Source: a virus
Virus record (IMG/VR): IMGVR_UViG_3300024346_007254
Coordinates: 1 to 64,000 of that record
DNA: 64,000 nucleotides
Strand: one strand, 5' to 3'
This document shows, piece after piece, positions 7 to 44,143 of this stretch. The notes beneath the pieces are model-generated. The model made no database searches and was not told where the DNA came from. It was given only the letters and a program-made list of their open reading frames with translations. A program made the translations under genes and the position numbers. The first letter of the stretch is position 1. Each line of letters starts with the position of its first letter.

Positions 7-1119
7 TTAAACTTTCCTTTTAGGTATCTTACTGTCGGCGCTGCTTACACAACTGTCTGTAATACAGGGCATCGGTTTGTCAAACAGCTTAAACCCTGTT
101 TCTATATTACCAAGAGGCACATCGTGGCATGAATAGGAACGTTTGATACTTCCGTCAGGCTCGCGTATAATAATTCCTTGATATCCGGCATTACAACTCC
201 ATCCTTTAAATTTGTTAAAGTTAAAGGCATTAAAGCGCTCGGCCTGATCCATGAACCATTTCTTGCCGTTTTTGTCTTCAAACTCAACTTGCATATGCCA
301 TGGAACACTTGCATCTAGTTTGCCATTAATGCCTTTTGGTATTTCAAATGTAGGCTTTGGACGGTCTGCCCATTTGCGTTTGCTTTCTGTGTAAGCACGT
401 TGTGGCATGCCGTTGTGCAGTCTCTTAAGCATATCGTCTGTATACCCGTCAACGACGCGGCTAGCGGTAGGGTCTGACTGTGGCTTGAGTGTTACGTTAA
501 TATTTTGCTCATGAAAGAACAGTGCGTTAGACCAGTCTTCTTCAAAGTGCTCCGGACGCATTACCATGTTGATTGTAACTTGCACATCGTACTCTTGACA
601 GAAAACTAGCTTGTCTGCAAATTCTTGCATCTTCTCTGTTGTGTTAAGATGCTCTGTGTGTAAGCTTGCTGTAATGCTGGCGCGGTGGAATGGCTTTGCA
701 TACTCTACATATTCTTCAAACCACTTCATATTGCGACTGCAATTAGATGTCATGTGTACTGAAGTATAGTTTGTGTTCGGAGCGTCATCTGAAAGGTGTT
801 TCATAATATCCAAGTAGCCTGGATGGAACGTAGGCTCGCCTCCGCTTAGGGAGAAGTGGAAACTGTTAAATCCGTTGCCTCTAGCTTGTCGTTTAATCTC
901 ATCGATTGTCTTAAGGCAGAGTTCAGTCGGTCTGTGATCTTTTCTATCCGACCTTGCATATGGCCAGCAATAACTACACTTATAATTACAAAACCTACCG
1001 AGTAACCAAGACACAGTGAAAATATCTCTGTAGATGAGAGTTCTTTGGCCCACAGACGTGATATCGTCAAACGGAATTTTTGTAAAATCGTAGTTGCTCC
1101 ATTTTAAATCTTCATTCAT
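7..1119 (-). CDS. Radical SAM protein, type C (Cys-rich C-terminal tail)
   Basis: This 370-residue protein has the radical SAM cluster motif CxxxCxxC at C44, C48 and C51 (CNYKCSYC), followed by a clear GGEP motif. The C-terminus carries a second cysteine set (C309, C331, C352, C357) with a 'GWxC' entry and an 'LGN' turn, as expected for a SPASM/Twitch-like domain holding an auxiliary Fe-S cluster. It should cleave S-adenosylmethionine to start radical chemistry; the substrate is unknown. It is the last gene of the 7972-to-7 minus cluster, but it is set apart from its upstream neighbour by 52 bp holding its own sigma-70 promoter. The ATG at 1119 lies 5 nt below the -10 box and has no Shine-Dalgarno site. 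Confidence 0.88.
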   Translation of the reverse strand: MNEDLKWSNYDFTKIPFDDITSVGQRTLIYRDIFTVSWLLGRFCNYKCSYCWPYARSDRKDHRPTELCLKTIDEIKRQARGNGFNSFHFSLSGGEPTFHPGYLDIMKHLSDDAPNTNYTSVHMTSNCSRNMKWFEEYVEYAKPFHRASITASLHTEHLNTTEKMQEFADKLVFCQEYDVQVTINMVMRPEHFEEDWSNALFFHEQNINVTLKPQSDPTASRVVDGYTDDMLKRLHNGMPQRAYTESKRKWADRPKPTFEIPKGINGKLDASVPWHMQVEFEDKNGKKWFMDQAERFNAFNFNKFKGWSCNAGYQGIIIREPDGSIKRSYSCHDVPLGNIETGFKLFDKPMPCITDSCVSSADSKIPKRKV

Positions 1120-1124
1120 AATTT

Positions 1125-1153
1125 ATTATAGCATCCAATTTATTCTTTGTCAA
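1125..1153 (-). promoter_or_regulatory. Consensus sigma-70 promoter
   Basis: Read on the minus strand there is TTGACA (1153-1148), a 17-bp spacer, then TATAAT (1130-1125). Both hexamers are perfect. The ATG of the downstream rSAM gene starts only 5 nt after the -10 box, so transcription should begin at or next to the start codon, giving a leaderless or nearly leaderless message. This suggests early expression by host RNA polymerase of this one gene, apart from the operon above it. Confidence 0.75.
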
Positions 1154-1171: not shown

Positions 1172-2113
1172 CTATAGTTCTTCTTTTGAAAAATGATCTC
1201 TTTTATTTTCTTTACAAGTGTTTAAACATTTTGGAATTTTATTATCACCAGTCCAGGATTCAATTATATCCGTAAACACTTTTCCTTTGAGTGCTTCTTT
1301 AATACTTACGTTTTCTAGATTAATGTCGTTCATGTAGTCGTGCTCAACTAGTATTTCTTCAAAGCGATCTTTAACTTCACCTGTTACAGAAAATTCTAGC
1401 ATCTTGCTGTTTAGATGACAGCACGGAATAACGTTACCCATATGATTTACAAAGATTCTTTTTTGATTTGAATACTTACAACTTATACAAGGCGACTCGT
1501 CTACTTCTTTTTTCTTGTGCTTCACTCCATTTTTATCATCGCGGTGACTTATGATAGTTTTAAAATCTTTAAACCCTTCAGCTTTAGCTTTTGCTTTTGC
1601 TTCTTCTAGTTGGTGCTCGTTATGTTCAAACACAATAAACTGCCAATTAGATTTGCCGCCCGCTGCATTAAATGCGCGGTAGTTTTTTTCTACCTTTTCA
1701 AAATTAGAACCTTCTCTATAAATTTCACTTGTGCTATCGCTACCGTCAATGCCCCATGTTACTTTGTGGCTTGCAGGCATATGAGTAGCTAACTTTGCCC
1801 ACCATGCTTCGGTTCGCAAACTCCCATTAGTAGCAACGTTTATATGGGCATTCCAATCTGCAAAATGATCAATTATATCAAAAAAGTCAGGATGGGTAGT
1901 AGGCTCGTCGACACTGCCGCAAAAGTTGATAATTTTTATATTAGGAAAGTCTTCTTTAATAAATCTTTTTCTAATAGTATCGATTCCAATATAATGTTTG
2001 TTTAAAATCTTATCAGCTTGTTTTGATATAACTCTAAAACACCCCTTGCAACTTATGTTACAAAAGCTAGTAAGTTCTATATCAATCCATTCTATTGTGT
2101 CAGTTGACCACAT
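1172..2113 (-). CDS. Radical SAM/SPASM-like protein, type B
   Basis: A 313-residue radical SAM protein with C18, C22 and C25 in CxxxCxxC (CNISCKGC). The usual GGE motif is replaced by CGSVDEP, which keeps the extra cysteine found in all type-B proteins of this window. A 'F-x-HNEHQ' segment follows the TNGS strand. The C-terminus has a SPASM-like set: a CxxC (PCISCK), then IPCC, then CLNTC. The start codon overlaps the stop of the upstream gene as TAATG, so translation is probably coupled. Relatives in the window are at 6893, 10034 and 27830. Substrate unknown; SPASM enzymes often act on peptides, but nothing here shows that directly. Confidence 0.87.
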   Translation of the reverse strand: MWSTDTIEWIDIELTSFCNISCKGCFRVISKQADKILNKHYIGIDTIRKRFIKEDFPNIKIINFCGSVDEPTTHPDFFDIIDHFADWNAHINVATNGSLRTEAWWAKLATHMPASHKVTWGIDGSDSTSEIYREGSNFEKVEKNYRAFNAAGGKSNWQFIVFEHNEHQLEEAKAKAKAEGFKDFKTIISHRDDKNGVKHKKKEVDESPCISCKYSNQKRIFVNHMGNVIPCCHLNSKMLEFSVTGEVKDRFEEILVEHDYMNDINLENVSIKEALKGKVFTDIIESWTGDNKIPKCLNTCKENKRDHFSKEEL

Positions 2114-3450
2114 TATGTTATCCTCGTTTCTAAATATTTAATAATATCGGGATGCAAGTATTCGTGATAATCTTGATCCCTTGATTTATCAAATACTGTA
2201 ATTTCCCTCAACATGTTTTGTCTATGTTCGTCAGTTACATCAAAGTCTAAATTTTCTTCTAAGTATTTAATTACATGCTTCACCATAGTTGAGCCGTGGT
2301 CAGCTGCAAGAGTTTGAAAATTTTTGATCAGGTCGAGCTTTATATCTTTTGTTAAGAATTTAACATTAATAAATTTTTCATCTGGCCAAATCAAGTCTAC
2401 AAAAAAGCTACAATTCTCTACTGTATCATTATTTAAAATACGTTCTTTGTACCATTTATAAAGATCGGGAATGTAGTGTGCGTTGAGCGCACTAAGCACT
2501 ATAGTTGGAAATAAATTTAACTTACGATCGTTTTCGTCAAACTTTGCAATTAGGTTATCTAAACTTTTTACAAGACTGTTCCATTTCATTGGGTAACGAA
2601 TATATTCGTAATTTTTTCCAACACTGTCGATGCTTAGATTTAGAGACGGCGCGCCTCTAAATTTTAACATTTTTTTAACTAATTGATTATTAAATTTTGT
2701 TGCATTTGTATGAAAACTTAAATGTATATTTTTGGCAGCGTCAACTTCTATAGCTTTATCTAAAAACTGTAAAAAAGGTTGAACAATTGTAGGTTCACCA
2801 CCAGTTGCTTTAATTTCTCGCAAGTTGTGTATGTTATCTAAAATATTTTGCCATTGCTCGTTACCGTTCCAAAAATGTGACTTGTTGTGAGAATTTGGAC
2901 CTGTATTATGTAAGAAGGTAGGAATATTAGTTAATTGCTTATCAGATTTCCATTCAAACCCACTGATGCCATTAGTGTCTAGATTGTTTTCAATAAAGTA
3001 ATTATAATCGTGTCTAAGCTTATTACTAAGTCCAGGTTGACACATTCTGCATCTAAGGTTACAATTTTCGCCAAGGCTCAGGTCAACACATTGCATCTTC
3101 GGATTATTAACATCAAACTCATTAGCATCAGGAAGGGTAGAAAAAATCCTATAGCTTGTACTGCCTCTGTCTTCCATTTTCCAACAAGTGTTACAAGCTT
3201 GGGGGCGGTTGCCTGCAAGCATTGATTCTCTTATTGCAGTCATTGCAGGTCCATAGAATATCTCCGTGGGCATAATTTTTTTTTCAGACTTAGCAATAAT
3301 GTCTGCTATATGCAGTGGATCGGGGGTCTCGGGCCTTATTGCATTACAACATGGTGCTGCACTTACAATACCTAAGCCGTCTTTCCACTCCTTTAGTGCC
3401 AATTGACTAAAGGGAAAATAGCAAAACGTATTGTCGGTTTCTGGTTTCAT
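2113..3450 (-). CDS. Radical SAM protein with N-terminal SPASM/Twitch-like domain (type A)
   Basis: This 445-residue protein opens with a cysteine-rich domain: C10 (FCYFPF), C34/C35 (APCC) and C86/C89 (CNTCW). This is the order of a SPASM/Twitch domain, but placed before the barrel. The radical SAM motif follows at C130, C134 and C137 (CNLRCRMC), with a later GGEP. A strand reading LNLSIDS is followed by the 'YEYIRYP' signature shared by the type-A proteins here. It overlaps both neighbours by 1 nt (TAATG junctions), so it sits inside a tightly coupled operon. Product and substrate are unknown. Confidence 0.87.
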   Translation of the reverse strand: MKPETDNTFCYFPFSQLALKEWKDGLGIVSAAPCCNAIRPETPDPLHIADIIAKSEKKIMPTEIFYGPAMTAIRESMLAGNRPQACNTCWKMEDRGSTSYRIFSTLPDANEFDVNNPKMQCVDLSLGENCNLRCRMCQPGLSNKLRHDYNYFIENNLDTNGISGFEWKSDKQLTNIPTFLHNTGPNSHNKSHFWNGNEQWQNILDNIHNLREIKATGGEPTIVQPFLQFLDKAIEVDAAKNIHLSFHTNATKFNNQLVKKMLKFRGAPSLNLSIDSVGKNYEYIRYPMKWNSLVKSLDNLIAKFDENDRKLNLFPTIVLSALNAHYIPDLYKWYKERILNNDTVENCSFFVDLIWPDEKFINVKFLTKDIKLDLIKNFQTLAADHGSTMVKHVIKYLEENLDFDVTDEHRQNMLREITVFDKSRDQDYHEYLHPDIIKYLETRIT

Positions 3451-4703
3451 TAATTGTTCTCAGTAGGTATAATCGGAGGAGCCTTTGCTACTTCGTCCAT
3501 ACTGTTTTCAAAAACACTACTATCAATATGATTATAAAGAACATCTTTATAGTTTTCTTTATATGCACTCTTTGGTGCGCAAAGGCCGCAACCACATGTA
3601 GCTTTTGGACAAATAACAGTTGGCATTGTCTTTGACTCAAGGCGTTGTTTTAGATCTGCAATGATTTTATAACCTTCGCTAATCTTTCCAATCGGGCCGC
3701 GTGTTTGATCAAATTTAGCTTGACACGTTTGGTGATGGAATACTTGATCTGTTTGTTGTTCTAAATGCAGGAAGAACCAGTTAACACTGCAATGCCAGCC
3801 TTTAAAGTTTCTAAAGTCAACAAAGGTACTTTTACGATCTTCTCCTTTAGCACTTAGGCACATCTCTCTACTGCCGCAGCACGGTCGTCCAATTGCATAA
3901 CCATCTTTCTTTGGTTTAAGTACAGGAACTGCTTCAGCAACCTTAGTTTCTTCGTTTGTAGGTTCGCCTACAGCACTTAGTTTGTGCGATATTTCTTTTT
4001 CATCATTAAGTTTAGCGTTCTTATACTTCCAGTAGTTTTTCATATAATCAAGTTGTTCTTCAGTATACTGGTGTGCAAAGTCACTAGCACTGCCTGCTTC
4101 TTCTCCAATTACACGCGGTACATACTTTACACCGTTTTCATGCAAAAAATCACATAGCTCTTTGCATTCGTCAAAGTATGCAGCATGAAACATAACATTA
4201 ACACTTACAGTGAAATTATTTGCAGGGCCTTCTTTATGAAACTGCATTATTCTATCTTTAACTTGCTGTTTAAGTTTTTGATTGCTTTCGCTATGATAAC
4301 TAACTGTGGCGTGAGTAAAATGCTTCATTACGTTATCGGCCATCTTCTTGCCCATTGCGCCGTTTGTAGTAAGTGAAAATGTTGCAGTCCACTTGTCACT
4401 ATACCGTTTTTTGTATTCATCTTTAAGATAAATTACAAATGGAACAAAATGAGGGTTAACTGTAGGCTCGCCTCCGGTAAAACTAATAGCGGTATATTTG
4501 TTTTTTCTATATTCCATATATGTATCAATATATTCAAACAAGAAATTTGTGTTAGCTTTTAATTCGTCAAGAGTTGCATGTGGACTAAAGTTATCATGAC
4601 GGTGAACAGGACAATAGCTACAATCATAGTTACATCGTCTTCCAAGATCCCACGACACTTGAAAAACATTTCCAGTAAGCAAGTCTACTGTATCAAAACT
4701 CAT
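3450..4703 (-). CDS. Radical SAM protein, type C, extended Cys-rich tail
   Basis: Starting at the ATG at 4703 the protein has 417 residues. That start gives a 4-nt ATGA overlap with the upstream PP-loop gene; the longer reading frame from 4742 would overlap it by 43 nt and adds an unconserved leader. The rSAM cluster motif is C24, C28, C31 (CNYDCSYC) and GGEP is present. The C-terminal third is rich in cysteine: a CC pair, 'GWHC', 'HHQTC' and a final CPxxxCGCGxC. It shares this tail, including HHQTC and the CGCG block, with the gene at 26785, so the two are close paralogues. Confidence 0.87.
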   Translation of the reverse strand: MSFDTVDLLTGNVFQVSWDLGRRCNYDCSYCPVHRHDNFSPHATLDELKANTNFLFEYIDTYMEYRKNKYTAISFTGGEPTVNPHFVPFVIYLKDEYKKRYSDKWTATFSLTTNGAMGKKMADNVMKHFTHATVSYHSESNQKLKQQVKDRIMQFHKEGPANNFTVSVNVMFHAAYFDECKELCDFLHENGVKYVPRVIGEEAGSASDFAHQYTEEQLDYMKNYWKYKNAKLNDEKEISHKLSAVGEPTNEETKVAEAVPVLKPKKDGYAIGRPCCGSREMCLSAKGEDRKSTFVDFRNFKGWHCSVNWFFLHLEQQTDQVFHHQTCQAKFDQTRGPIGKISEGYKIIADLKQRLESKTMPTVICPKATCGCGLCAPKSAYKENYKDVLYNHIDSSVFENSMDEVAKAPPIIPTENN

Positions 4704-5482
4704 AAAGAATAACCCTTCTTTGCTGCTTCTTCCATTGCCCATTTTCGTTCAGCACACCAAAAACAATTGTTACATACTTCGAGAGGAATACCGTGTTCGT
4801 ATGTGTCCCACGTTATTCCTTCAAATTGGCCTTCGCAACTTCTTGTAGTAGTTAACAAATCTTGCCACCCATTAACAAAATATTGTTCTATAACCCAATC
4901 TTTTTCAACATACTTAAACGGGTGTAGCTGACTCCATTCTTGTTGTTCTGCTGTGGCGTCCTCTATAGATACCTTTCTATCGTGCGGGGCTTTATTCAGC
5001 TTAACATTGGGGTTTTTAGTAACACAATTGTATATGCGAGAAAGATTGTGTCGTTTAAATGCATATTGATTATATGCACTTACCACCATCCTGTCGCCGG
5101 AAAACGCAGGATCTGCTGGGTTTTTATAAGGTCCGGACTCTTCAAATTGAGGTGGAATAAATCCTTCAATGCGTTCGACAATTACATCTGGAAACATTTT
5201 CTTTAATTTATTGTATACATCAATGCTGATGTATCCAGCCCAAGGCCTATCGGTGTAAACACGAACAAACGAAATTATCTTTATCTTTGTCTTGTATCCA
5301 TTTTCTTGAATGTACTTTGCTAACAGTGACGTAAATAACGCACTGTCGGCACCGCCACTTACATTTATTCCAACATAGTCCCAATTCGGATCGAAGCGTA
5401 CAGGCAAGCCATTTAGCTCATGTAACTTATCACTTATGCCAAGTGAATAGAATTTTTTTTGTATTTCATCAAGATTTGTCAT
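4700..5482 (-). CDS. QueC-like PP-loop ATPase
   Basis: A 260-residue N-type ATP pyrophosphatase. The PP-loop SGGADS is at residues 42-47, near the N-terminus. The C-terminus has TRSC (C216), then C237, C240 and C243 in CxxCFWC-x-ER, which matches the zinc site order of QueC (7-cyano-7-deazaguanine synthase). Such enzymes adenylate a carboxylate or amide and then add a nitrogen or sulfur nucleophile. It lies between an rSAM gene downstream (ATGA overlap) and a type-A rSAM gene upstream (14-nt overlap). Sequence between the motifs is not clearly QueC, and no other queuosine-pathway gene is visible, so the substrate is open. Confidence 0.82.
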   Translation of the reverse strand: MTNLDEIQKKFYSLGISDKLHELNGLPVRFDPNWDYVGINVSGGADSALFTSLLAKYIQENGYKTKIKIISFVRVYTDRPWAGYISIDVYNKLKKMFPDVIVERIEGFIPPQFEESGPYKNPADPAFSGDRMVVSAYNQYAFKRHNLSRIYNCVTKNPNVKLNKAPHDRKVSIEDATAEQQEWSQLHPFKYVEKDWVIEQYFVNGWQDLLTTTRSCEGQFEGITWDTYEHGIPLEVCNNCFWCAERKWAMEEAAKKGYSL

Positions 5483-6893
5483 CTAGAGATTCCTTATTAA
5501 ATATATCTTTCATTTCAGGAAACGTTTCAGCAAATGTTATCCCACGTTGTTGATCACATAATCCAAGAAACTCTTTCATTTCGGGTAGACGTTGACTCCA
5601 ATCTTCCGAATCCATAAAGCTAAGTATTCCATCAAGACGTTTGATTCCGTATTCTGCTTCTTGCCATGTTTCATATGTTATTTTTCCTTTGTGCCACTCC
5701 GGTATACCTAGTTCCCAGTTTTCTTCCCACCACGGATACCATGCTTCGTACTTATCTCTGCATTCTTTCTTAAACCAAGTAGGTAGAGCTTTTACATTTA
5801 GGTGTGCCGGCCAGTATACAAAGTGCTGACTTATGCCGCCAGCGCCAAATGGCCACATGTTAACCTTTTTAAAACCTTGCTCAAGTTTCCATTGTATAAA
5901 ATCTGGCAAGTAATATACATTAAGGGCTTGTACTGCGCAAGCAATAGTAACCTCGACATTATCACTTGTTTCGTTATCAAGTATGTGGAACACTTCTTCT
6001 TGACGTGTCCACTTACTAGGATAGCGAATATAATCATTCATCTCTTTAATGCTGTCTATCGAATAGTGAAAACGCACCAGCTTAAATTCTTTCCATAAAT
6101 CAAATAGGTCCTCTCTCCATTCAACTCCATTTGAGTTATAACGAAGTTCAAGGTCTTTTGCATAACCCATTTTAATTGCGTGTTCAAGAATTTCATAATG
6201 TTCCTCAATAATAAGACTTTCGCCGCCTGCAAAATAGATTTGTTGCATAGTCGGCATTTGCTCATAAAACTGTTTCCAGAATGTAGGATTTTGTTTGTGC
6301 CAGTTGTAACTACTGCCGTTAGTACTACCTTTGTCTTCCCACTGCATAATCTCTTTAAGTGATTCGTTTTTAACTGCTGGGAAGATAGCTTTGTAGTCTT
6401 TAATCCAGCCACTGCTATCATGCGGGCTGCACATTACACAAGCAAGCTGACACTTTGTTCCAAAACGCAAATCAATGTATGCTAGGTTTGGGGGCACTTC
6501 GCCATCTTCTTTGGTATCGGCTAGAATCTTTTCAAGGTCTACACGCTGGCTCCAATAGTGTGTTTCCCACTGTCGCTTACTACGATGGCCTGCTGCTTCC
6601 TCTTTGTAGCACTTTAAACAGCTAGGTGGTTTTTCTCCGTTAAGCATTTGCTTTCGGACGTTCTTCATGTAGTTGCTATTCCATGCTGTTTCAAAGTCAC
6701 TTACATTTAGATTGTTAGGCTTGCCATCATCTGTTTTAAGAATGCCTACTTGTCCGCCATGTTCTTTGTCATTTGTTGGGCCAACGCTACTTGCGTTAGC
6801 TGTACAACAAACTCTCATGCTGCCGTCTGGGCGTGTACTTAGGTGTACCCACGGCAGGAGGCAAAACGTCTCGCTCGGTAATTTATCGGTCAT
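5469..6893 (-). CDS. Radical SAM protein with N-terminal SPASM/Twitch-like domain (type A)
   Basis: At 474 residues this is the longest rSAM protein in the window. Its N-terminal cysteine domain has C11 (FCLLPW), C29/C30 (RVCC) and C92/C95 (CLKCY). The SAM-binding CxxxCxxC is C148, C152, C155 (CQLACVMC), followed by 'SPHDSS-x-W-x-KD'. GGES stands in for GGEP. The closest relative is the gene at 29517, which shares the SPHDSS block, the ETxxW linker and the overall length. It overlaps the PP-loop gene downstream by 14 nt and the type-B gene upstream by a TAATG junction. Confidence 0.88.
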   Translation of the reverse strand: MTDKLPSETFCLLPWVHLSTRPDGSMRVCCTANASSVGPTNDKEHGGQVGILKTDDGKPNNLNVSDFETAWNSNYMKNVRKQMLNGEKPPSCLKCYKEEAAGHRSKRQWETHYWSQRVDLEKILADTKEDGEVPPNLAYIDLRFGTKCQLACVMCSPHDSSGWIKDYKAIFPAVKNESLKEIMQWEDKGSTNGSSYNWHKQNPTFWKQFYEQMPTMQQIYFAGGESLIIEEHYEILEHAIKMGYAKDLELRYNSNGVEWREDLFDLWKEFKLVRFHYSIDSIKEMNDYIRYPSKWTRQEEVFHILDNETSDNVEVTIACAVQALNVYYLPDFIQWKLEQGFKKVNMWPFGAGGISQHFVYWPAHLNVKALPTWFKKECRDKYEAWYPWWEENWELGIPEWHKGKITYETWQEAEYGIKRLDGILSFMDSEDWSQRLPEMKEFLGLCDQQRGITFAETFPEMKDIFNKESLDDKS

Positions 6894-7972
6894 TAGTTTC
6901 CTTCAATCTTAATTTCGTTATGGTAAGCTTTGTTCATTCCGCATGTACGAACACAACGAGTTAGGTGCAAGCTGTTTTTAGGATCCCAACTTAATTCTAA
7001 CAGTTCAGTATACCACGGATGTGATAGAATTTCTTCTACAGTGTGATATCTAAGGGAATTCCACGTATCACTAAAAATTGCCAACTTGTCGACTATTTTG
7101 TCTCCATTTTTAATAAATTCTGTCCACAAAAAACAGCATGGCCAAACTTTTAAATCTGCAGATATAAAAATCTCTCCCTCATGGATGTACTTACACGTTA
7201 TACTTTTAATTATAGCATCTTTTTCGTTTTTGTCAATTTCTTTGTTTGAGGAATAATCCTCAATGAATTTATCAAGCTTTTGTACTTGAGCCACTTTACT
7301 GTGTTCTTTAGCACCCGTTGTTGTAACTATTTTTTCTTCTTTGACTATTTTACCATTTTGTTTTTTAGTAATTTGCGATAGCCAATCCTGATAGCTGTTG
7401 CGCATACCAGTACGAGTGGCAAATTTTAATCCTAGCTCTGCGGCGTGCTGGCGAGCAGTGTCTAACTCGTATTCATTATGGTCAAACACAATAAAGATCC
7501 ATGTGCCCGTTGCAATGCCTTCGCCGCCTGCCATGTATGCTTTTACGTTACGCTCAATAACTGAGAATTTTGTATTAACTCTGTATATGTGATTTGTTTC
7601 AGCATGACCATCAATACAAAAGACAACGTCTACATTTTGTGTTTCTTTGCCAACTTTGCCTAATTCTCGCCACCATTCTTCTGTACGGATGCCGCCGTTT
7701 GTGCTTAATTGACAACGGCCACCGTTTGTGGCCAAATATCTAACCATGTCCAGACATTCTACGTTTGCAGCCGGGTCGCCTAATACTCCGCAAAACTTAA
7801 ACGATTTTCCAGTAATGTGTTCTTTTTTAGGAAAGGCTGACTGCAAGTCTTTAAATGTAAAACTTTGAATCTTGTATTCGCCGAGCCGTTGTGTCCTTAG
7901 ACAGCCCGGGCACGCCGCATTACAATCCGACGTGATTTCGAGTTCAATTTTTTTAAGGAAATCAACTGACAT
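6893..7972 (-). CDS. Radical SAM/SPASM-like protein, type B
   Basis: A 359-residue protein and the first gene of the seven-gene minus operon. C17, C21 and C24 form CxxxCxxC (CNAACPGC). The GGE position reads CGVLGDP, the type-B signature. A 'STNGG-IRTEEWW' segment and 'FDHNEYE' are shared with the other type-B members. The C-terminal SPASM-like region contains ITCKY, WPCC and CVRTC. The ATG at 7972 is about 19 nt below the palindromic late promoter, with only a weak purine-rich stretch ahead of it. Confidence 0.87.
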   Translation of the reverse strand: MSVDFLKKIELEITSDCNAACPGCLRTQRLGEYKIQSFTFKDLQSAFPKKEHITGKSFKFCGVLGDPAANVECLDMVRYLATNGGRCQLSTNGGIRTEEWWRELGKVGKETQNVDVVFCIDGHAETNHIYRVNTKFSVIERNVKAYMAGGEGIATGTWIFIVFDHNEYELDTARQHAAELGLKFATRTGMRNSYQDWLSQITKKQNGKIVKEEKIVTTTGAKEHSKVAQVQKLDKFIEDYSSNKEIDKNEKDAIIKSITCKYIHEGEIFISADLKVWPCCFLWTEFIKNGDKIVDKLAIFSDTWNSLRYHTVEEILSHPWYTELLELSWDPKNSLHLTRCVRTCGMNKAYHNEIKIEGN

Positions 7973-7991
7973 TGTGTACGTACTTTACTCT

Positions 7992-8007
7992 CATAAATAT
8001 ATTTATG
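7992..8007. promoter_or_regulatory. Palindromic bidirectional T4-type late promoter
   Basis: The 16-bp sequence CATAAATATATTTATG is a perfect palindrome, so CATAAATA (matching the T4-like late consensus NATAAATA) is read on both strands. On the plus strand it is followed by exactly 5 nt and the ATG of the rSAM gene at 8005; the last three bases of the palindrome are that ATG. On the minus strand it serves the seven-gene operon starting at 7972. One short element therefore probably fires both transcripts under phage late control. Confidence 0.62.
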
Positions 8008-9282
8008 AACTCCGATACACCAGAAAATAAAAACAATGCAATACTTAAGAAATATGGCAAATCCTTTTGTGCTGCGCCGTTTACTAGTTTCCACGAAGGT
8101 GAAAACGGTCTTATCAGTACGTGTTGCAAAACTAGAAATCCTCTTGGGTTTACTTCCCAAAATACTGTAGAAGAAATTCTAAACAGCGCAGAAGCACAGA
8201 AAATTCGTAAAGAATTTCTAGAAGGCAAACGCCCAGAGCAATGCAAGGCTTGCTGGAATCTAGAAGAAAGCGGAAAGATTGCTAGCAACAGACTCCATTC
8301 AAATGATATGGGTGCGGCAGGCATTGACGAAGCTGTCGCAAATACTAACGAAAATGGCTATATGAACAAACAGTTTCCAACATGGCTGGATATCTTATGG
8401 ACTAATAAATGCAATTTTGCGTGTATAGGATGCAAGCCTAGTTTAAGTAGTACAATTGCCAACAACTATATAAAAGAATTTTCTATATTGCACAATCACG
8501 ACTACGCAAAAGAACAATCACATGAATGGAAAAATTCAAATGATAGCAAAATAGATTACGTTCTTAAGCATAGTGATTCTATACACACTATTCACCTTAA
8601 CGGCGGCGAACCATTAATGGCCGAAGACTTGTATGAATTCTTAGAAGTAATGATTAGCAAGGGACTTCACAAGAAAATAAAAATATGGAGTCATACTAAC
8701 GGCAGTGTAAAGAGTTTTAAAGGTAGAGATTTAATACTTGATTATTTTTCTCATTGGGGCAAGAATTGTAAGATTACGTTAAGCAATGACGGACATAGTA
8801 AGTACGGTGAATATATTAGATATGGATACAATGATAAAAAATGGCTGAATACATATGAAAAAATTAAAGAAGCAAAAATAGAATTTAACGTTCAGACCTG
8901 TTTAAATATTTTTAACGTATTGTACTTAGATGAAATTAATGATTGGTATTTTTCTAATATTATCGATAATGAAAAGATTCCATATGGAACATTAACCCTC
9001 TGGACAAATCCAACTCTTAGTATTAGGCTAGCAAATCACATACCTGAACTAAGAGAACAGTCGTTAAACATGTTAACACAGCTTCAATCTAAGAAAAGTA
9101 TGCAGTGGAATAAATCACTAGTTTCAAGTCACCAATGGCTTGAAAATAATACACATGCGGACCAACATCATTTGAAGTCTTTTTATAACGGAGTAGTAGC
9201 GTTAGATGCAAAAAGAAATACAAACTTTTTAGAAACGTTTCCGTTGCTTACAGATTTATACAATTTAGGAAAATCTATTTAA
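8005..9282 (+). CDS. Radical SAM protein with N-terminal SPASM/Twitch-like domain (type A)
   Basis: The 425-residue frame starts at ATG 8005. A TTG at 7972 would add 11 residues but lies upstream of the late promoter and overlaps the neighbouring start. N-terminal cysteines are C22 (FCAAPF), C40/C41 (STCC) and C80/C83 (CKACW). The radical SAM motif is C136, C140, C143 (CNFACIGC), followed by NGGEP and 'YGEYIRYGY'. It stands alone on the plus strand and its 3' end overlaps that of a PP-loop ATPase gene by 8 nt, so an A-type rSAM and a PP-loop gene are again adjacent. Confidence 0.87.
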   Translation: MNSDTPENKNNAILKKYGKSFCAAPFTSFHEGENGLISTCCKTRNPLGFTSQNTVEEILNSAEAQKIRKEFLEGKRPEQCKACWNLEESGKIASNRLHSNDMGAAGIDEAVANTNENGYMNKQFPTWLDILWTNKCNFACIGCKPSLSSTIANNYIKEFSILHNHDYAKEQSHEWKNSNDSKIDYVLKHSDSIHTIHLNGGEPLMAEDLYEFLEVMISKGLHKKIKIWSHTNGSVKSFKGRDLILDYFSHWGKNCKITLSNDGHSKYGEYIRYGYNDKKWLNTYEKIKEAKIEFNVQTCLNIFNVLYLDEINDWYFSNIIDNEKIPYGTLTLWTNPTLSIRLANHIPELREQSLNMLTQLQSKKSMQWNKSLVSSHQWLENNTHADQHHLKSFYNGVVALDAKRNTNFLETFPLLTDLYNLGKSI

Positions 9283-11935: not shown

Positions 11936-12156
11936 TCATCTAATACCAATTTTACTTGTTTGCCCGGACCTACTTTGCTCGGTAAATCGCCGTAACGATC
12001 TATATACCATTCAATAACAGCTTTGTACCAGTTTTGGCTATTATGATGTGCCTTTTGATTAAACTGCCATATGTTATTGTTTGTTGCTTCCATTGTACTT
12101 AGTGCTCTTGCACTTTCCGTTTGCAACTCTCTTAAACTTAAATCACTTATATCCAA
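11932..12156 (-). CDS. Small protein of unknown function (74 aa)
   Basis: Not recognised. The 74-residue product is mostly predicted-helical, with aromatic residues in the middle (NWYKAVIEWYIDRYG) and a basic C-terminal end (GPGKQVKLV). It contains no cysteine. It overlaps the upstream methyltransferase-like gene by 14 nt and the SGNH-like gene by ATGA, so it is translated as part of the operon. Being small and inside an rSAM-rich operon it could be a substrate or carrier, but it shows no leader/core layout, so this stays a guess. Confidence 0.55.
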   Translation of the reverse strand: MDISDLSLRELQTESARALSTMEATNNNIWQFNQKAHHNSQNWYKAVIEWYIDRYGDLPSKVGPGKQVKLVLDE

Positions 12157-16077: not shown

Positions 16078-16084
16078 ATACTTA

Positions 16085-19604: not shown

Positions 19605-19609
19605 AGTGT

Positions 19610-23924: not shown

Positions 23925-23938
23925 TGCTCAGTTTTTAG

Positions 23939-23946: not shown

Positions 23947-23951
23947 AAAGT

Positions 23952-33486: not shown

Positions 33487-33494
33487 TGTATACC

Positions 33495-33502
33495 TATAAA
33501 TA
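33495..33502 (+). promoter_or_regulatory. T4-type late promoter
   Basis: TATAAATA, a perfect match, ends 4 nt before the ATG at 33507. As at other divergent starts here, no ribosome-binding leader fits. Confidence 0.58.
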
Positions 33503-33506
33503 TGTT

Positions 33507-34856: not shown

Positions 34857-34863
34857 ATCATTC

Positions 34864-34888
34864 CTTAAATATAGTATGAGTATTTATA
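34864..34888. promoter_or_regulatory. Divergent late promoters
   Basis: Minus strand TATAAATA (34888-34881) is a full match and lies 24 nt before the ATG at 34856, with AAGGA between. It is embedded in codons 2-5 of the amidinotransferase gene on the other strand. Plus strand CTTAAATA (34864-34871, one mismatch) lies 4 nt before the amidinotransferase ATG at 34876. Confidence 0.5.
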
Positions 34889-38050: not shown

Positions 38051-38762
38051 TATGGTGCCAATATTCTTGTCCGTCGACACTAAACCCCTGATCCAAGCAA
38101 TGTTCAAAGAATGATAACTTACTATTGTTGTATCCAATAAATCTTTCTTTAATAATCTTATTCTGATAATATTCATAACGAGCACCGGTTGCACACGATT
38201 GAAATGCATTTTTAAAAATAAAAGGAAATCTGTTTGCTTCAAGTATTGTTTGCAAATTAATGATATTTAAATATCGATTAACTTCCCAATGCTCATTACT
38301 AATAAACATCGACTTCGATAATGTTTTAGCATTCCTTCTTAAATTGCTTGGAAAAACAGGAGCATAATGGTCCGGATGTATGTGTCCAACATTTCTGTCC
38401 GCTACATAAGGAAGAAATTGCCAATAGTTGTCAGTTTTAGAATGATCAAAAAATATTTCAGATCTACTGCTTCCTGTCCAGTGTATTAAGTATAAAGTAC
38501 GCTTGGCCATTGCGGCATGATCTAACATCCACATTGACGTAGTACGATTTATATAATCATTACTTGCACCCGGGAGTGCAAGGTTAGTGTATACAACACC
38601 TAGTTTTCTAGCTAACTGTGCTCCAAAGCAATTGTCGCGATTATAGTTGCCTTCGCCAATGCCCGAGCCTTCAATTTCGCTGCCGGCGGTATGGCTACAT
38701 CCATTAATTAAAATATGCTCAAAGTCATATTTTTTCTTTCGGAATGATAATATCTGTGCCAC
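37995..38762 (-). CDS. SGNH/GDSL hydrolase-like protein
   Basis: 255 residues. 'ILINGCSHTAGSEIEGSG' is block I, here with GCSH, 'NLALPGASNDYI' is a clear block II, and 'LYLIHWTGSSRSE' follows. The C-terminal 'YWHHTKAAHDYWADLL' would carry the catalytic His. It is the last gene of the eleven-gene minus operon and overlaps the rSAM gene upstream by 38 nt. The upstream residues before GCS are longer than in its relatives. Confidence 0.6.
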   Translation of the reverse strand: MAQILSFRKKKYDFEHILINGCSHTAGSEIEGSGIGEGNYNRDNCFGAQLARKLGVVYTNLALPGASNDYINRTTSMWMLDHAAMAKRTLYLIHWTGSSRSEIFFDHSKTDNYWQFLPYVADRNVGHIHPDHYAPVFPSNLRRNAKTLSKSMFISNEHWEVNRYLNIINLQTILEANRFPFIFKNAFQSCATGARYEYYQNKIIKERFIGYNNSKLSFFEHCLDQGFSVDGQEYWHHTKAAHDYWADLLYLENFS

Positions 38763-39690
38763 AGTGACAATGCTCCTTACTACAAATTACAGGCTTAAGA
38801 TTAAGTTTTAGATCTTTGTCTAAAATGTTTCCGTGTCTATTTCCAACTCCGCAACTAGCACTGCTTATTTGTCCAATTGGGTTGATGAACAAAGCGTCAT
38901 CAACTGAACACTTCCATCCTTTAAAAAAATTCTGTCTTGCTGCTATTATTTCATTACTATTTACCGGACGAGTTGTACCGTTATTATAATGTGCAATACT
39001 GATTGCTTTATTAGTTCTATGCGGCTTGGGTATACGCATTACTGTTTCAAATTGTGCTTCTGCAAGAAACTTTTCTTTAGCAGGATCTTTGTATTTCCAT
39101 GGACCTGCATTAACGCTCATTTCATCAAACAAAGGTGTCCATTCTAAATTGTAGTTTGGTACTTCTTGTCTTACACGTTCGCCAAAATCAACTACCTCCC
39201 AAAAACGCTCTTCGTGCATTAACATTTTTGTGCATAGATAATCTACCTTATCGCATAAAAATTGTGCATTTTCAATGTATCTATCTTTTTTACAAAACTC
39301 AACGTGAAAGCTTGCTACAATATCATCAAACAAATGATAGTGCTGTTCCCAATATTTTAGTGGTCTTGACAAATTGGTATTAATTGCTACTGTTAACTTG
39401 TCGCCCATTTGTTCTTTTAAATATTCAGTGAGTGGAATAAAGTTTTCCCAATATGCAGGTTCGCCGCCACTAAGAAAAATCTTAAAATATCGATACCCCC
39501 TGTCCTCGTATTGACGGAATATATCCATTACATTTTTCTTGTATAAATCTAGGTTGCCGTTGTTTTTGCTGTCGCCTGCCCAATTGCCTGGATTGCAATA
39601 ACTGCATTGAAAATTGCAGAAGTTATTCACTTGCCATGTTATGCTAAGGTACGGTTCGGCCATTGGAGTTATTTTAGTTAGTTTATTCAT
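38725..39690 (-). CDS. Radical SAM protein, type C (compact)
   Basis: 321 residues with C25, C29, C32 (CNFQCSYC), 'LSGGEPAYW' and the tail cysteines C261, C280, C303, C308 and C310. 'GWKC', 'HGNI' and CxxxxCHC match the tail of the protein at 25892. It overlaps SGNH-like genes on both sides (38 and 8 nt), so it is sandwiched between two hydrolase-like genes. Confidence 0.88.
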   Translation of the reverse strand: MNKLTKITPMAEPYLSITWQVNNFCNFQCSYCNPGNWAGDSKNNGNLDLYKKNVMDIFRQYEDRGYRYFKIFLSGGEPAYWENFIPLTEYLKEQMGDKLTVAINTNLSRPLKYWEQHYHLFDDIVASFHVEFCKKDRYIENAQFLCDKVDYLCTKMLMHEERFWEVVDFGERVRQEVPNYNLEWTPLFDEMSVNAGPWKYKDPAKEKFLAEAQFETVMRIPKPHRTNKAISIAHYNNGTTRPVNSNEIIAARQNFFKGWKCSVDDALFINPIGQISSASCGVGNRHGNILDKDLKLNLKPVICSKEHCHCGTDIIIPKEKI

Positions 39691-40273
39691 TTATTAATTT
39701 AAACAATCTTTTTGCAAATATATCATGGGTTCTTTTATTAGGGTGTCCATCTTTTAACGCTTTGTAATAACCAAATTTTTTAAAAACAATATCTATATTT
39801 ACATTGTTCCAGCTTGGTGGATTTTTAATTATTAATTTATTATATGTATGCAAACTATTAATTGTTTGGCTAACTCTATTTTTTAAAAAGTAATTAGCTA
39901 AGTTAGCATTCATAAAAAAATCTAAACAATCATCGTAGTCGTTTTGATACTTAGCAAAAAACCTCTGCCATACTTCTTCTTCTTGCCAGGAAGCTAGTTG
40001 TTCCCAATAGCGTCCATTCCAGACTCCTCTACGAGAAGGAATGGACCAATTTATTACAACAATGTCTGTTTTTCTAAACTCTGTTTCAAGTACTGTTGCT
40101 GTTATTTGCTTAGAAGATGCTCCGGTATCGGACCTATTAAGTTCTTCTCTTCCAAGCATATTTGATAACGTAGTAGAGAATCCAAGCTTGCTAGGAGGAT
40201 CATTGACTGTTAAGCAGTCATCTAATTCTAATCCATATACGTGACTGCATCCAAATGTAACTAATCTAGGCAT
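39683..40273 (-). CDS. Short SGNH/GDSL hydrolase-like protein
   Basis: 196 residues, the shortest of the five. 'RLVTFGCSHVYGLELDD' is block I, 'RSDTGASSKQI' the block II loop, 'IVVINWSIPSRRG' a strand and 'LKDGHPNKRTHDIFAKRL' the D-x-H block. The 8-nt overlap with the type-A rSAM gene upstream is the same kind of junction used by the next three upstream pairs. Confidence 0.6.
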   Translation of the reverse strand: MPRLVTFGCSHVYGLELDDCLTVNDPPSKLGFSTTLSNMLGREELNRSDTGASSKQITATVLETEFRKTDIVVINWSIPSRRGVWNGRYWEQLASWQEEEVWQRFFAKYQNDYDDCLDFFMNANLANYFLKNRVSQTINSLHTYNKLIIKNPPSWNNVNIDIVFKKFGYYKALKDGHPNKRTHDIFAKRLFKLINE

Positions 40274-41549
40274 ATTTGCGTAACCAAGTCATTTCCGGAT
40301 AAACGGACCAAAAGTCCTCTTTACGATGAATGTCCAATCTATGATTATTATCAAAAAACTGCTTGAGTTTGGCCTCATCTAATTTGCCAGTATTCATAAA
40401 TTGTATAACGCTATCAATTTTTCCAATTACATCCTTAATTACTTCCGGACGTGCTTCTGCACGTTCTTTAATCTTGTCAAATGCCCATGCTTTATAATCG
40501 ATATATTTTGATCTTAATTCTATTTTAATATCTTCCGGTATGTTATCAATTCGCATAAAATCAGGATCGGTAAGGATATTCAGTCTACAATTTTCAATAT
40601 CTACTAACCCACGTTCTACCCAATCCATATGAAAATCTGGCCAATTCCATGCATTGTATAAACTAATAGTCGGCGTTAATTCAAAGTGTACATGAGGCAC
40701 TTTCTCAAGCATTTCAATTCTGTTACGTTCAATTTGATTCCAGTCGGTGCCATTCCTGCTGTATTCAGCTCTTGTTCCATTGGAATCAAGACTACCGCTA
40801 ACTTGGATATCTTCAAATTCTTTCCAGTATTCGATTATTGACTTTTGTTTGTATTTAAAGTTACTAAAATTAGTAGTGTAACGTAACCGCACATCTTTTT
40901 TACCAGTTTCAATCCAATAATCAAGTATTTTGTAATGCTCGTCTGTAATAAGTGCTTCGCCGCCTGCCCAATACACTTCTTCGACATCGGGCAAATATTT
41001 TTGCAGATCTTCCCAAAAGTTGTTTTCTTTTGCAATATTAACTACAATCTTGCCATCGTTTTTTAACATACGAGCAAGTTCGTGTTCGCCGTACAAGTCT
41101 TTAAATTCTTTAGCATGTTGACTGCTAAGTTCTGGACCACAAGTATGACATTTCATGTTGCAAATATTTGAGAAGCGTATGTCTAAGTATGCCATGCGCA
41201 AATTATCAATACTTCCGTCGGCATTTGTATTTTCAACTAGATCAAAGTGTTTGTCACCAAACCATTGATTATGATTCTTGCGCAACGTCCAAGTATTTGA
41301 TCGATTTTCTAGTTCGTAGCAACGTTTGCATACATCACGCTTTTCTCCGTTAAGCATTGCTAGTCGAAGATCCTTGTATTCGTCACTATTCCATACTTCA
41401 GCAATGCTTTTATTTTTTACATTGCCAAACGGCTTATCCGAATCAGCAATACAACAAGGCATTGCATTGCCGTTTGGCCAAACGTGCATGTGAACCCACG
41501 GTAAAATGCAGAATGCTTTATTCTGTGTTAATAACTCTTTTTTATCCAT
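40266..41549 (-). CDS. Radical SAM protein with N-terminal SPASM/Twitch-like domain (type A)
   Basis: 427 residues. The N-terminal domain shows the SPASM layout well: C14 (FCILPW), 'PNGNAMPCC' (C32/C33), 'FGNVKNKSIAEVWNSDEY' and C74/C77 (CKRCY). The radical motif is C130, C134, C137 (CNMKCHTC). GGEA replaces GGEP. With the next gene upstream it forms a close pair (both start MDKK-x-LLT, and share 'DIRFSNICNMKC' or a near copy). Confidence 0.88.
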   Translation of the reverse strand: MDKKELLTQNKAFCILPWVHMHVWPNGNAMPCCIADSDKPFGNVKNKSIAEVWNSDEYKDLRLAMLNGEKRDVCKRCYELENRSNTWTLRKNHNQWFGDKHFDLVENTNADGSIDNLRMAYLDIRFSNICNMKCHTCGPELSSQHAKEFKDLYGEHELARMLKNDGKIVVNIAKENNFWEDLQKYLPDVEEVYWAGGEALITDEHYKILDYWIETGKKDVRLRYTTNFSNFKYKQKSIIEYWKEFEDIQVSGSLDSNGTRAEYSRNGTDWNQIERNRIEMLEKVPHVHFELTPTISLYNAWNWPDFHMDWVERGLVDIENCRLNILTDPDFMRIDNIPEDIKIELRSKYIDYKAWAFDKIKERAEARPEVIKDVIGKIDSVIQFMNTGKLDEAKLKQFFDNNHRLDIHRKEDFWSVYPEMTWLRKYA

Positions 41550-42768
41550 TTAACATTACAGCCAATTCAGGAAATACTTTAGCGAAATCTTCGTTGCGTA
41601 TTTTATCTCTTCGGTGCGTATGATGCAAAAATTGCTCTTTTTGGTCATGCCATTGATCTTGCTGGGTAGTAAAAGTTATTGCATCGCGTACATGCATAGC
41701 TTGATACCAATCGTGCTCAATCATATAACTGTGAAGGTCGATTAACTTTTCCGTACCTATAACTTTTAAATGTGTTGGTAGTATTGTTGAAGCATAGTAT
41801 TCCGGAGTCAACGCTCTATAGATACTTATCATGTCCTTTTTTCGTAGTAAGTCTTTATCCATCATGTACTGGAAAAAGTCCGAAAGTGTAACATAATTAA
41901 AAACACTCAAAACTGTGTTATATTGGTAGTCAATGTAATCCAGGTCGCGTATGCTTTTTAGATTGCTTTCAACAACACCCCAATCAGTGCCGTGCCTTAT
42001 GTATTCGGCGCGTTCGCCGTAATGATCAATGCTTGCACTAATTTCAACACGCTTAAATCTGCTCCACAAATCAAGTATGTTGTGCTTCTTGTATTTGAGG
42101 TTGCTCATATTAGTATTGTAGCGCAATGTAATTTCACTGTTTCTACCAGTGCGAATCATTTCTTCTAATATGATATAATGCTCTTCTGTAATAAGAGGTT
42201 CTCCGCCAGCAAAATATGCAAGTTCCATGTGCGGGACTTGCGACTTTATTTCGTCTAATAATTTGCCTGTATTATCTGCATGATTAATAACACGATATCC
42301 GGTTTCAACGTTATCATGTTGCTTCATTTCTTGTGCCCATTGACTGCTAAATTCAGAGCCACAAGTACGACACTTCATATTGCAAATATTACTAAATCTT
42401 ACATCGAAATATTTCATACGGAATTCTGGTAAAGATCCGTCTGTGCTTGTTGGGGTTACAAGTTCATCAAAGTCCTTGCCAAAATGCTCTAGGCTATATT
42501 TTCTAAAACTGAAAGGTGAGCTTTCTTCATGCTTGTAGCAATATGTGCATATGCTGCTTTCTTTGCCAGCAAGCATATCAAGTCGCAATTGCTTCATTTT
42601 GTCATTGTTAAAAATGTCTTTTAAGCTTGCATCCTTAACGTTAGCAAACGGCTCAGTATAATCACTGCTACAACACGGATACACGTTTCCTAGAGGAGTC
42701 ACATTTAAGTGCATCCACGGAAACATGCAAAAAGTTTTACTATCAGTTAGTAATTGTTTTTTATCCAT
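41542..42768 (-). CDS. Radical SAM protein with N-terminal SPASM/Twitch-like domain (type A)
   Basis: 408 residues from the ATG at 42768, which overlaps the upstream stop by 8 nt and has AAAGAAG ahead of it; the frame from 42792 adds 8 residues inside the neighbour. N-terminal cysteines C14, C32/C33 and C74/C77 fall at exactly the same positions as in the gene at 40266. The radical motif is C129, C133, C136 (CNMKCRTC) and GGEP is intact. The two genes are a tandem duplication. Confidence 0.88.
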   Translation of the reverse strand: MDKKQLLTDSKTFCMFPWMHLNVTPLGNVYPCCSSDYTEPFANVKDASLKDIFNNDKMKQLRLDMLAGKESSICTYCYKHEESSPFSFRKYSLEHFGKDFDELVTPTSTDGSLPEFRMKYFDVRFSNICNMKCRTCGSEFSSQWAQEMKQHDNVETGYRVINHADNTGKLLDEIKSQVPHMELAYFAGGEPLITEEHYIILEEMIRTGRNSEITLRYNTNMSNLKYKKHNILDLWSRFKRVEISASIDHYGERAEYIRHGTDWGVVESNLKSIRDLDYIDYQYNTVLSVFNYVTLSDFFQYMMDKDLLRKKDMISIYRALTPEYYASTILPTHLKVIGTEKLIDLHSYMIEHDWYQAMHVRDAITFTTQQDQWHDQKEQFLHHTHRRDKIRNEDFAKVFPELAVMLNG

Positions 42769-44143
42769 TTGCTTCTTTGCGGCAAAGTTCAAAGAATTCT
42801 GTCATTTCTGGAAAAGTAGCTTCGAAATCATTGCCACGTCTGCGATCTTGTTCCTTAAAATAGTTCCAAAAATCTCGGCGGCCTTCCATTAGCTTATTTT
42901 CGTCATATGTTGTGTTCTTCATGTAGTCAACTACACGACGGAATTTTTCATATTCAATTTCAGAAAAATGTACCTTACTCCCTTCCTGCATATTATCTTT
43001 AATAAATTGTAGATGACTTTCCATGTAAGGAATGTAATCTTCTTTTGGAAGAATATTTATGTCGTATTGCAACGGTTCTTTTAAATAAGGTGTATCAAAG
43101 TGAATGCGCTGCCAACGGCCACTATTTATATCGTTGTATTTCTGCCTCCATTCGAGTATCTTTTCAAGAAGTGTTTGGAAAGTTGTTACAGAGAACAGAT
43201 TGAAAGTAATCATAAACGTAACCGGTGCAGTTGTATTTGTTAAAAAGTAGTCAAGATTTCTTTCAAAAACTTCAAGGTCAAGTCCGTCGCGAATATATTC
43301 AGCACGTTCATTCCAAGTATCTACGCTAGTAAACAGTTTGAAGTGCTTAATTTTGTTTTGCGATATAAGACTGTTAACGCCGTCAGTAAACTTTTCTAGC
43401 TGCTTTTCTTTACCACCTAAATTGCTGTTAACATTTAATTCAAGGTTTGGCTTAGGCTCTTTTTCGAGCTCTTCGAACAGTCTATATGTGCTTTTTTGTA
43501 TTGTAGGTTCGCCGCCTGTTACACGCAGGATATTAAGCGTTTTGCTAACTTCCGGCCACCATTTCCACCATGCGCGAACGTAGGGGTTTGTTTCTTCTTC
43601 GTATACTTTAAACCAGTCTACATCACAGCGGTGATTTTTAGACATATCGTACGGTCCGTGCTGACGTATTTCAGCATGATAGCGACTGCTTGCTTTAGGG
43701 TGACAATATCCGCATCTAAAATTACATTCGTTTCCAAAGCTAACTTCAATATACTCAGGGTTCACGTCAAAGTCCCAAGGATTAAATTTAATCTCTTTTA
43801 GGCGATCTTCGCTGTGTATTGAGGCGCTGCGTATGTGCCTGTCACTAACATAGTCTTTGCCCATGTTTTCAATGTTCCAGCAATACTGACAACCTTCAGG
43901 CTGCTTACCTTCTAGCATCATTTTGCGCTCTAGCTTTTTATGCTTGGTATTATGCAACGCGCTCGGATTAGTTAACAGTTCATCAACATCAATTTTATGA
44001 GGTGCTGGATGATAGCAACTATGAGTTTCACCTGTCTGCAAATATATTGTAGTATGATACCATTTAGCATAGCAGAATGTAGGCGAAAAATGCCTATCTG
44101 TAATCTCATTTAGGTATTTGATTTTATCTGTTTGAAATGACAT
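42761..44143 (-). CDS. Radical SAM protein with diverged N-terminal Twitch-like domain (type A)
   Basis: 460 residues. The N-terminal cysteines are C24 (FCYAKW), a single C43 (HSCYH, where other type-A proteins have CC) and C85/C88 (CQYCW). The radical motif is C140, C144, C147 (CNFRCGYC), then 'TGGEPTI' and 'RAEYIRDG'. The loss of one cysteine may change the auxiliary cluster. It overlaps the glycosyltransferase-like gene upstream by 1 nt and the tandem rSAM pair downstream by 8 nt. Confidence 0.87.
   Translation of the reverse strand: MSFQTDKIKYLNEITDRHFSPTFCYAKWYHTTIYLQTGETHSCYHPAPHKIDVDELLTNPSALHNTKHKKLERKMMLEGKQPEGCQYCWNIENMGKDYVSDRHIRSASIHSEDRLKEIKFNPWDFDVNPEYIEVSFGNECNFRCGYCHPKASSRYHAEIRQHGPYDMSKNHRCDVDWFKVYEEETNPYVRAWWKWWPEVSKTLNILRVTGGEPTIQKSTYRLFEELEKEPKPNLELNVNSNLGGKEKQLEKFTDGVNSLISQNKIKHFKLFTSVDTWNERAEYIRDGLDLEVFERNLDYFLTNTTAPVTFMITFNLFSVTTFQTLLEKILEWRQKYNDINSGRWQRIHFDTPYLKEPLQYDINILPKEDYIPYMESHLQFIKDNMQEGSKVHFSEIEYEKFRRVVDYMKNTTYDENKLMEGRRDFWNYFKEQDRRRGNDFEATFPEMTEFFELCRKEANG

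Follow-up and report, generated by a model that had tools for sequence, protein, structure and literature searches.

Three recurrent modules of radical SAM genes beside predicted fibre genes of a large uncultured virus of bacteria

Why should a phage carry 18 radical S-adenosylmethionine (SAM) genes within about 44 kb? The question is raised by the first 64,000 nucleotides (hereafter, the window) of IMG/VR record IMGVR_UViG_3300024346_007254, a fragment of 74,882 bases, for which an earlier sequence-only reading had proposed that such density and diversity point to a multi-step pathway. We found that these genes form three families which, together with a divergent QueC-like PP-loop enzyme, a methyltransferase-like protein and glycosyltransferases, make up three modules. 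With conserved modules, linked partners, gene fusions and position-specific copies, what was a gene count becomes a pathway that is defined and testable. We see about an even chance that the 44 kb are a tail-proximal island for glycan-tailoring biosynthesis acting on the host surface or on the fibres; the evidence for this is linkage.

The radical SAM genes

Open reading frames (ORFs) are present and intact at all 18 places where the motif CxxxCxxC had been claimed to lie in the barrel position; the starts then given as 8005, 24634 and 26785 lie inside ORFs that begin at 7972, 24625 and 26737. The motif occurs in 18 of the 60 called proteins, against a mean of 0.12 and a maximum of 2 in 200 shuffles. 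The Pfam profile PF04055 (Radical_SAM) retrieved 17 places, 15 of them above the curated cut-off, and an 18th match was found in g10 (10034..11113, −), a family B gene with an E-value of 1.2e-6, only 0.2 bit under the cut-off. Overall, 15/18 genes are above the cut-off and 3/18 under it, and all 18 align with their paralogues around the motif. As predicted from motif and barrel match, these are genuine radical SAM enzyme genes, and the original count of 18 stands.

All-against-all comparison and alignments sorted the genes into families A (n=8), B (n=5) and C (n=5). The diversity noticed earlier consists of the expansion of these three families. Auxiliary-cluster cysteines are present in all 18 proteins, before the motif (an N-terminal Cys set) in family A and after it (C-terminal) in families B and C; one of the paired auxiliary cysteines is missing from g49 of family A. 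GGE is kept in families A and C, not in B.

Family A comprises g03 (2113..3450, −), with an N-terminal Cys domain (PF04055 E 3e-9; aligned with the family); g06 (5469..6893, −), with an N-terminal SPASM domain; g08 (7972..9282, +; PF04055, SPASM); g30 (24625..25899, +; PF04055, SPASM), which groups with the gene following the PP-loop gene in other phages; g35 (29517..30908, −; PF04055; 42% identity to g06); g47 (40266..41549, −; PF04055 E 7e-5, under the cut-off; 36% identity to g48); g48 (41542..42792, −); and g49 (42761..44143, −), which falls in one clade with genes of the same position. When three sampled genes of this family were scanned with the N-twitch family NF033640, g06 (424 bits, E 5e-127), g48 (387 bits, E 8e-116) and g49 (307 bits, E 2e-91) all passed the 170-bit cut-off, whereas the sampled B and C genes stayed far under it (≤54 bits). 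The NF033640 family record gives no function.

Family B contains the radical SAM/SPASM gene g02 (1172..2113, −; PF04055 and PF13186 SPASM), the SPASM-like g07 (6893..7972, −; PF04055 E 0.0013, under the cut-off; BLAST 1e-35 to other B genes), g10, g33 (27830..28894, −; PF04055 E 1e-12) and the divergent radical SAM/SPASM gene g15 (13818..14789, −; PF04055 E 8e-13, SPASM). To family C belong g01 of module III (7..1119, −; PF04055 E 7e-14; CNYKCSYC, GGE and C-terminal Cys), g04 (3450..4742, −; PF04055 E 3e-12), g31 (25892..26797, +; PF04055), g32 (26737..27861, +; PF04055 E 4e-16, the best in the record) and g45 of module I (38725..39690, −; PF04055). In NCBIfam, B and C genes match, among others, peptide maturases, MoaA and viperin, all far under the cut-offs, and no function can be assigned from this.

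A 19th copy, g34 (28873..29520, −), is a degenerate relative of family C that has lost CxxxCxxC while its frame is still open; its alignment and BLAST place it closest to g04 (E 4e-4). It may be a non-catalytic partner.

Genomic setting, recurring modules and partner enzymes

To the right of the window, the record encodes a gp25-like protein, a gp6-like protein (1144 aa) and a 3112-aa structural protein, all but gp6 identified from layout and size. Among the matches listed, those nearest to gp6 come from Salicola phage SCTP-2 and Agrobacterium phage Atu_ph07 (440–490 kb), with 35–36% identity. Judged from its genes, the contig is predicted to come from a T4-related large myovirus, in which it would follow the baseplate and fibre genes on their downstream side; its source is a large uncultured virus of bacteria. 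Baseplate genes in the record and a gp6 closest to phages support the attribution to phage DNA; the label 'marine T4-like' was too narrow, as gp6 is closest to jumbo phages. The same result weakened pelagimyophage identity, a first guess made from gene layout. With respect to the pelagimyophage VrlC–gp14 placement, a very large structural gene and the baseplate lie on one side, and the other end is beyond the contig.

We compared about 240 IMG/VR loci, 80 each anchored on family A, on the PP-loop enzyme (PP) and on the methyltransferase-like protein (MT); IMG/VR holds at least as many members of family A, MT and gp6 as were counted. Three gene arrangements of constant order (modules I to III) recur in these loci on many independent contigs from other aquatic viruses. 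Module I runs fibres–g55–g54–GT53–GT52–g51–GT16–A–A–A–C, followed by SGNH-like and g38 genes, with a varying number of A genes. Module II consists of hydroxylases/kinases–PP–A–C and a facing set, C–A–MT–B–C–GT16, and module III of GT16–MT–g12–B–B–A–A–PP–A–C. All three are present in the window, locally rearranged. Every arrangement contains a gene of the glycosyltransferase (GT) family GT16, and module I a GT8-like gene.

Contigs retrieved through gp6 only, with no radical SAM criterion, carried radical SAM genes in 16 of 20 cases among the matches listed; those longer than 70 kb all did so (11/11, with 5–19 genes each, again among the matches listed and with some near copies). Related contigs found through family A or PP carry 3–22 radical SAM genes each among the matches listed. 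Density without precedent, as the sequence-only reading had implied, could not be upheld, since published phages have 8–12 radical SAM genes and the listed IMG/VR relatives up to 22. Multi-radical-SAM clusters near phage tail genes are already published; the three-module organisation with its partners and fusions is new. A literature search that left many subscription papers and preprints outside its reach turned up no description of the fusions, the modules or their PP-loop partner, nor any function assigned to phage radical SAM clusters, which have been noted as oddities since 2010.

The PP-loop ATP pyrophosphatase, a divergent QueC-like protein, is encoded by g05 (4700..5482, −), with an invariant S.G.DS and four Cys, g09 (9275..10024, −; 39% identity to g05; profile E 5.5e-101) and g29 (23895..24647, +; profile E 2.7e-98). 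The AlphaFold model of g05 (predicted local distance difference test, pLDDT, 93) has QueC (PDB 2pg3) as its best match and Cap9 as the second, and a PDB profile search with PP gave no match. SGGxDS is found in 35/36 members of the family, SxGxDS in 36/36 and C(x)15-30CxxCxxC in 35/36, whereas the canonical QueC motifs used for comparison (PMC13329287), C(x)8CxxCxxC, YxQxHxxE, VPxRN and YPDC, occur in 0/36 each. The window enzyme resembles QueC, Cap9 and QatC in its PP-loop, four-Cys set and fold, and its family differs from them in lacking the QueC Cys spacing and the canonical substrate motifs. The PP-loop family may represent a new branch within the QueC fold.

PP genes are tightly linked to radical SAM genes. 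Of the 172 positions directly next to 86 PP genes, 77 are taken by family A, and in gp6-found records 11/11 PP matches lie less than 2 kb from a radical SAM gene, with 2.3 expected within 5 kb. Natural fusions join A to PP in two loci and B to PP in one (L096:8249-10732, L098 and L132). A tblastn search with PP found no match in 50,697 phage records, in which g06 (family A) matched two Vibrio phages. We initially considered PP to be virus-only, as genome tblastn gave no relative; this was dropped because profile searches found PP-like genes in two metagenome-assembled genomes (MAGs) of Bdellovibrionota.

MT is represented by g13 (12143..13123, −), with N-terminal repeats, a fold assigned from sequence motifs and 34% identity to g36 (30909..31514, −), which is conserved in a 26-sequence family. 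Radical SAM genes were present in 80/80 MT-anchored loci among the matches listed. In module III, MT adjoins a small conserved protein, g12 (11932..12156, −), which recurs between MT and B genes. The GT-A-like glycosyltransferases of family GT16, among whose invariants is the DxD-type D65/D67, are g16 (14779..16113, −), at the end of module III, and its homologue g50 (44143..45072, −), whose model (pLDDT 89) has glycosyltransferases as its best PDB matches. PDB profile searches with MT and GT16 gave no credible match. Two further glycosyltransferases are the GT8-like g52 (45650..46513, −; family profile match to glycogenin, E 4e-6) and the probable GT-A enzyme g53 (46479..47312, −; BLAST to g52 E 2e-5; DTD motif).

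The hydroxylase-like partners include g28 (23258..23998, −; stretch used for the family alignment), an Asp/Asn beta-hydroxylase-like protein whose profile matches 7v4f (Beta-hydroxylase) with E 2e-17 and which had no tblastn match in the 50,697 phage records. Three homologous proteins, g18 (17279..17764, +), g25 (21554..22087, −) and g26 (22080..22622, −), resemble 2-oxoglutarate (2OG) oxygenases, the PDB beta-hydroxylase match of the family being weak (E 0.03). From its sequence, the conserved partner g21 (18767..19582, −; 40/80 PP-anchored loci) is possibly an oxygenase. A kinase-like fold is predicted for g22 (19595..20305, +) and g27 (22591..23268, −), whose family profile aligns with part of the protein kinase fold (E 1e-6).

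We built a tree from 74 family A proteins, most of them taken from positions in modules I and II; on this tree the position label has to change 19 times, compared with a mean of 49 in shuffles. Position I1 forms a single clade of 12, and the II_a and II_b clades hold 12/13 each, the main exception being L106, where the labels are apparently swapped. The later module I positions are mixed, partly because positions were numbered by counting while copy number varies, and several long branches are unsure. That the sampled positional orthologues mostly group by position supports a division of labour; the positional clades support distinct lineages kept over time, and distinct chemistry is not proven thereby.

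Possible functions of the island

Our preferred explanation is that the three modules of specialised radical SAM enzymes would work with the PP-loop enzyme, methyltransferase, hydroxylases, kinase-like proteins and glycosyltransferases so that the island builds and tailors one or more unusual surface glycans. The radical SAM steps would make hard-to-reach C–H changes on what may be sugar intermediates, and the PP-loop enzyme may activate a carboxylate. The product would either alter the surface of the infected host, blocking rival phages, or decorate the fibres of the phage itself. We favour glycans because glycosyltransferases are linked to radical SAM genes both in the phage modules and in Bdellovibrionota, where GT2 genes lie at most 5 kb from an N-twitch radical SAM gene 14 times in six MAGs, versus 2.0 expected. 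This linkage, taken as the mark of a surface glycan system, was found, the GT16 fold match being weak. If it is indeed a surface glycan, or a fibre modification, that is made, the island would matter for the host range of phages and for how they compete in the sea and in lakes.

Several points weigh against glycan tailoring. The Poisson p of 3e-8 for the GT2 genes ignores the clustering of glycosyltransferase genes, and one of the six MAGs has none nearby. The GT16 model matches glycosyltransferases with E 8e-5 and low TM scores (template modelling; near 0.3). NAD-epimerase genes were not significantly nearer to the islands than expected in nine records (6/16 within 5 kb vs 4.4 expected, p 0.26). 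Since most loci were retrieved by anchoring on radical SAM, PP or MT genes, and several of them nearly duplicate one another, the neighbour counts cannot be treated as independent. The beta-hydroxylase-like proteins would fit protein modification just as well, and sugar and peptide substrates cannot be told apart from the radical SAM sequence alone. More tentatively, and with less than even confidence, we suggest a widespread, so far undescribed pathway of viruses: radical SAM enzymes specific to their positions would, together with a new class of QueC-like enzyme, build a novel glycan or a modified virion structure on which the attachment of host or rival phage would depend.

The chief alternative, that virion proteins are modified, gains plausibility from a cassette in Atu_ph07 (see below); we consider it possible but rather doubtful. 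Here radical SAM/SPASM enzymes, the PP-loop enzyme, the methyltransferase and beta-hydroxylases would put changes like those of ribosomally synthesised and post-translationally modified peptides (RiPPs) on proteins of the fibres or of other parts of the virion, so that fibres are stabilised or adsorption is tuned. SPASM-type radical SAM enzymes commonly modify peptides, the partners include Asp/Asn beta-hydroxylase-like proteins, and fibre genes border the island. In Atu_ph07 the equivalent place has peptide-maturase-like radical SAM/SPASM genes beside a protein ending in CHSSCHASCHNSRSRR, yet these enzymes are only distantly related to families A–C. Two QueC relatives, Cap9 and QatC, modify proteins (PMC11996544 and PMC13279940), and Cap9 ranks second among the structural matches of the PP enzyme. 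On the other hand, a narrow tail scan, which Cys-poor substrates would escape, found no Cys-rich or repeat-type substrate in the modules, the window fibres have few or no cysteines, and the module glycosyltransferases would need a separate reason.

It is unlikely that the island is redundant cargo, that is, a hypervariable region amplifying paralogues without distinct roles. The three expanded families, the varying copy number and the degenerate g34 would fit, and the clusters of Campylobacter phages CP220/CPt10 have been called interchangeable and probably non-essential (PMC2853527). Nevertheless, the positional clades, recurring gene order and PP fusions speak otherwise, and pN was below pS in 46/46 genes having a match, in a codon comparison with the closest match; this comparison is crude, since most synonymous sites have reached saturation and the match is in some cases a paralogue. 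Conservation of the ORFs is seen, for example, in g06, which has 90% amino-acid identity over 467 residues to the independent contig L126, with saturated synonymous sites. Because sampled family A genes mostly group by position and the partners co-occur tightly, we prefer a multi-step pathway, as had been proposed, to redundant copies.

Hypermodification of nucleobases, in which a QueE-like radical SAM enzyme and the QueC-like enzyme would supply phage DNA or tRNA with a 7-deazaguanine-type base, has at best a slim chance. Although the PP-loop enzyme is structurally nearest to QueC, this pathway is disfavoured because the QueC motifs are missing (0/36) and QueD is absent or distant: PF01242 (QueD) was detected in 6/18 relatives and 5/15 PP-bearing ones, never near a PP gene, in records that may be fragments. 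Misassembly of unrelated contigs, an outcome that could have undone the sequence-only reading, has a negligible probability, because the joins between modules recur with identical gene order in independent contigs (L254-L261 for I–II; L142, L160 and L167 for II–III) and no support for it was found.

Related phages, cellular relatives and neighbouring genes

CP220 and CPt10 carry 11–12 radical SAM genes per ~178 kb (PMC2853527). Like the window, they have five clustered radical SAM genes with putative amidinotransferase and nucleoside diphosphate (NDP)-sugar-transferase-like genes between baseplate and fibres, and the profiles of B, C and g41 match there; unlike it, PP-loop, MT and family A were not detected in the stretch examined, and the sequences are distant. 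The T4-like contig TARA_ERS488813_N000010, with 12 radical SAM genes (PMC5332604), and Aeromonas phage 332-Vera, with eight among structural genes (PMC12390700), are likewise large phages with many radical SAM genes; the accessible parts of both sources do not describe a module structure or partners. The host recognition cluster of pelagimyophages is hypervariable, lies beside fibres, averages 44.6 kb and contains glycosyltransferases and radical SAM cassettes (PMC7029224). Pelagibacter phage Mosig shares B-, C- and MT-like genes in this cluster, but has only two radical SAM matches, and the window gp6 is nearer to jumbo phages. Among the cultured phages compared, radical SAM matches numbered 11 in CP220, six in Vibrio K566, four in Atu_ph07, two in Mosig and none in SCTP-2; both CP220 and Mosig pair radical SAM with sugar-type genes beside fibres or baseplate.

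In Atu_ph07 (NC_042013.1, L415:15998-23647), the radical SAM/SPASM genes gp165, gp168 and gp171 and a fourth match flank gp170 and gp172. The 296-aa gp170 ends in CHSSCHASCHNSRSRR (a CHSSCHASCH tail), and gp172 is cupin/hydroxylase-like by sequence. Lying behind a fibre gene, the group looks like a RiPP-type maturation cassette.

Bdellovibrionota-type MAGs contain A, B, C, MT and GT16 together, with PP-like genes in two, and six of them have 10–33 N-twitch matches per genome, including those under the cut-off. These clusters differ from the window in lying on chromosomal contigs, in having GT2 genes and in a gene order unlike that of the phages. Large N-twitch arrays were seen in L241-L249 and G070-G079, all Bdellovibrionota-type MAGs, with more than 12 in ~30 kb in G074:C1. 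Five loci filed under bacterial MAGs (L218, L190, L194, L213 and L219) carry phage fibre genes or phage-order modules and are probably misbinned or integrated phage DNA.

Genes consistent with sugar or amidino chemistry are g37 (31511..32428, −), a NAD-dependent sugar epimerase/dehydratase (PF01370 E 3e-40), g39 (33450..34097, +), a short DegT-type aminotransferase-like protein (PF01041 E 9e-15), and g41 (34792..35883, +), which is amidinotransferase-like (phrog_25854 E 1e-25) and whose profile matches the putative glycine amidinotransferase of CP220 (E 2e-17). With only 215 aa and a family match in two pieces, g39 either is a truncated protein or represents a new, shorter form. Genes resembling NDP-sugar dehydrogenases are found repeatedly close to the modules, one cluster of them in 37 loci. 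A PDB profile search with g38 gave no match.

Three mutually homologous fibre proteins, g57–g59 (49655..54990, −), border the island and resemble a fibre-like gene in Atu_ph07 (E 2e-42). Another fibre-like protein, g17 (16134..17279, +), identified by sequence, lies at the join of modules II and III, and its adjacency to GT16 is repeated in independent contigs. SGNH-like hydrolase-type proteins, recognised by motif only, are encoded at 34083-34856, 35857-36885, 37995-38762 and 39683-40273 and recur in module I across phages.

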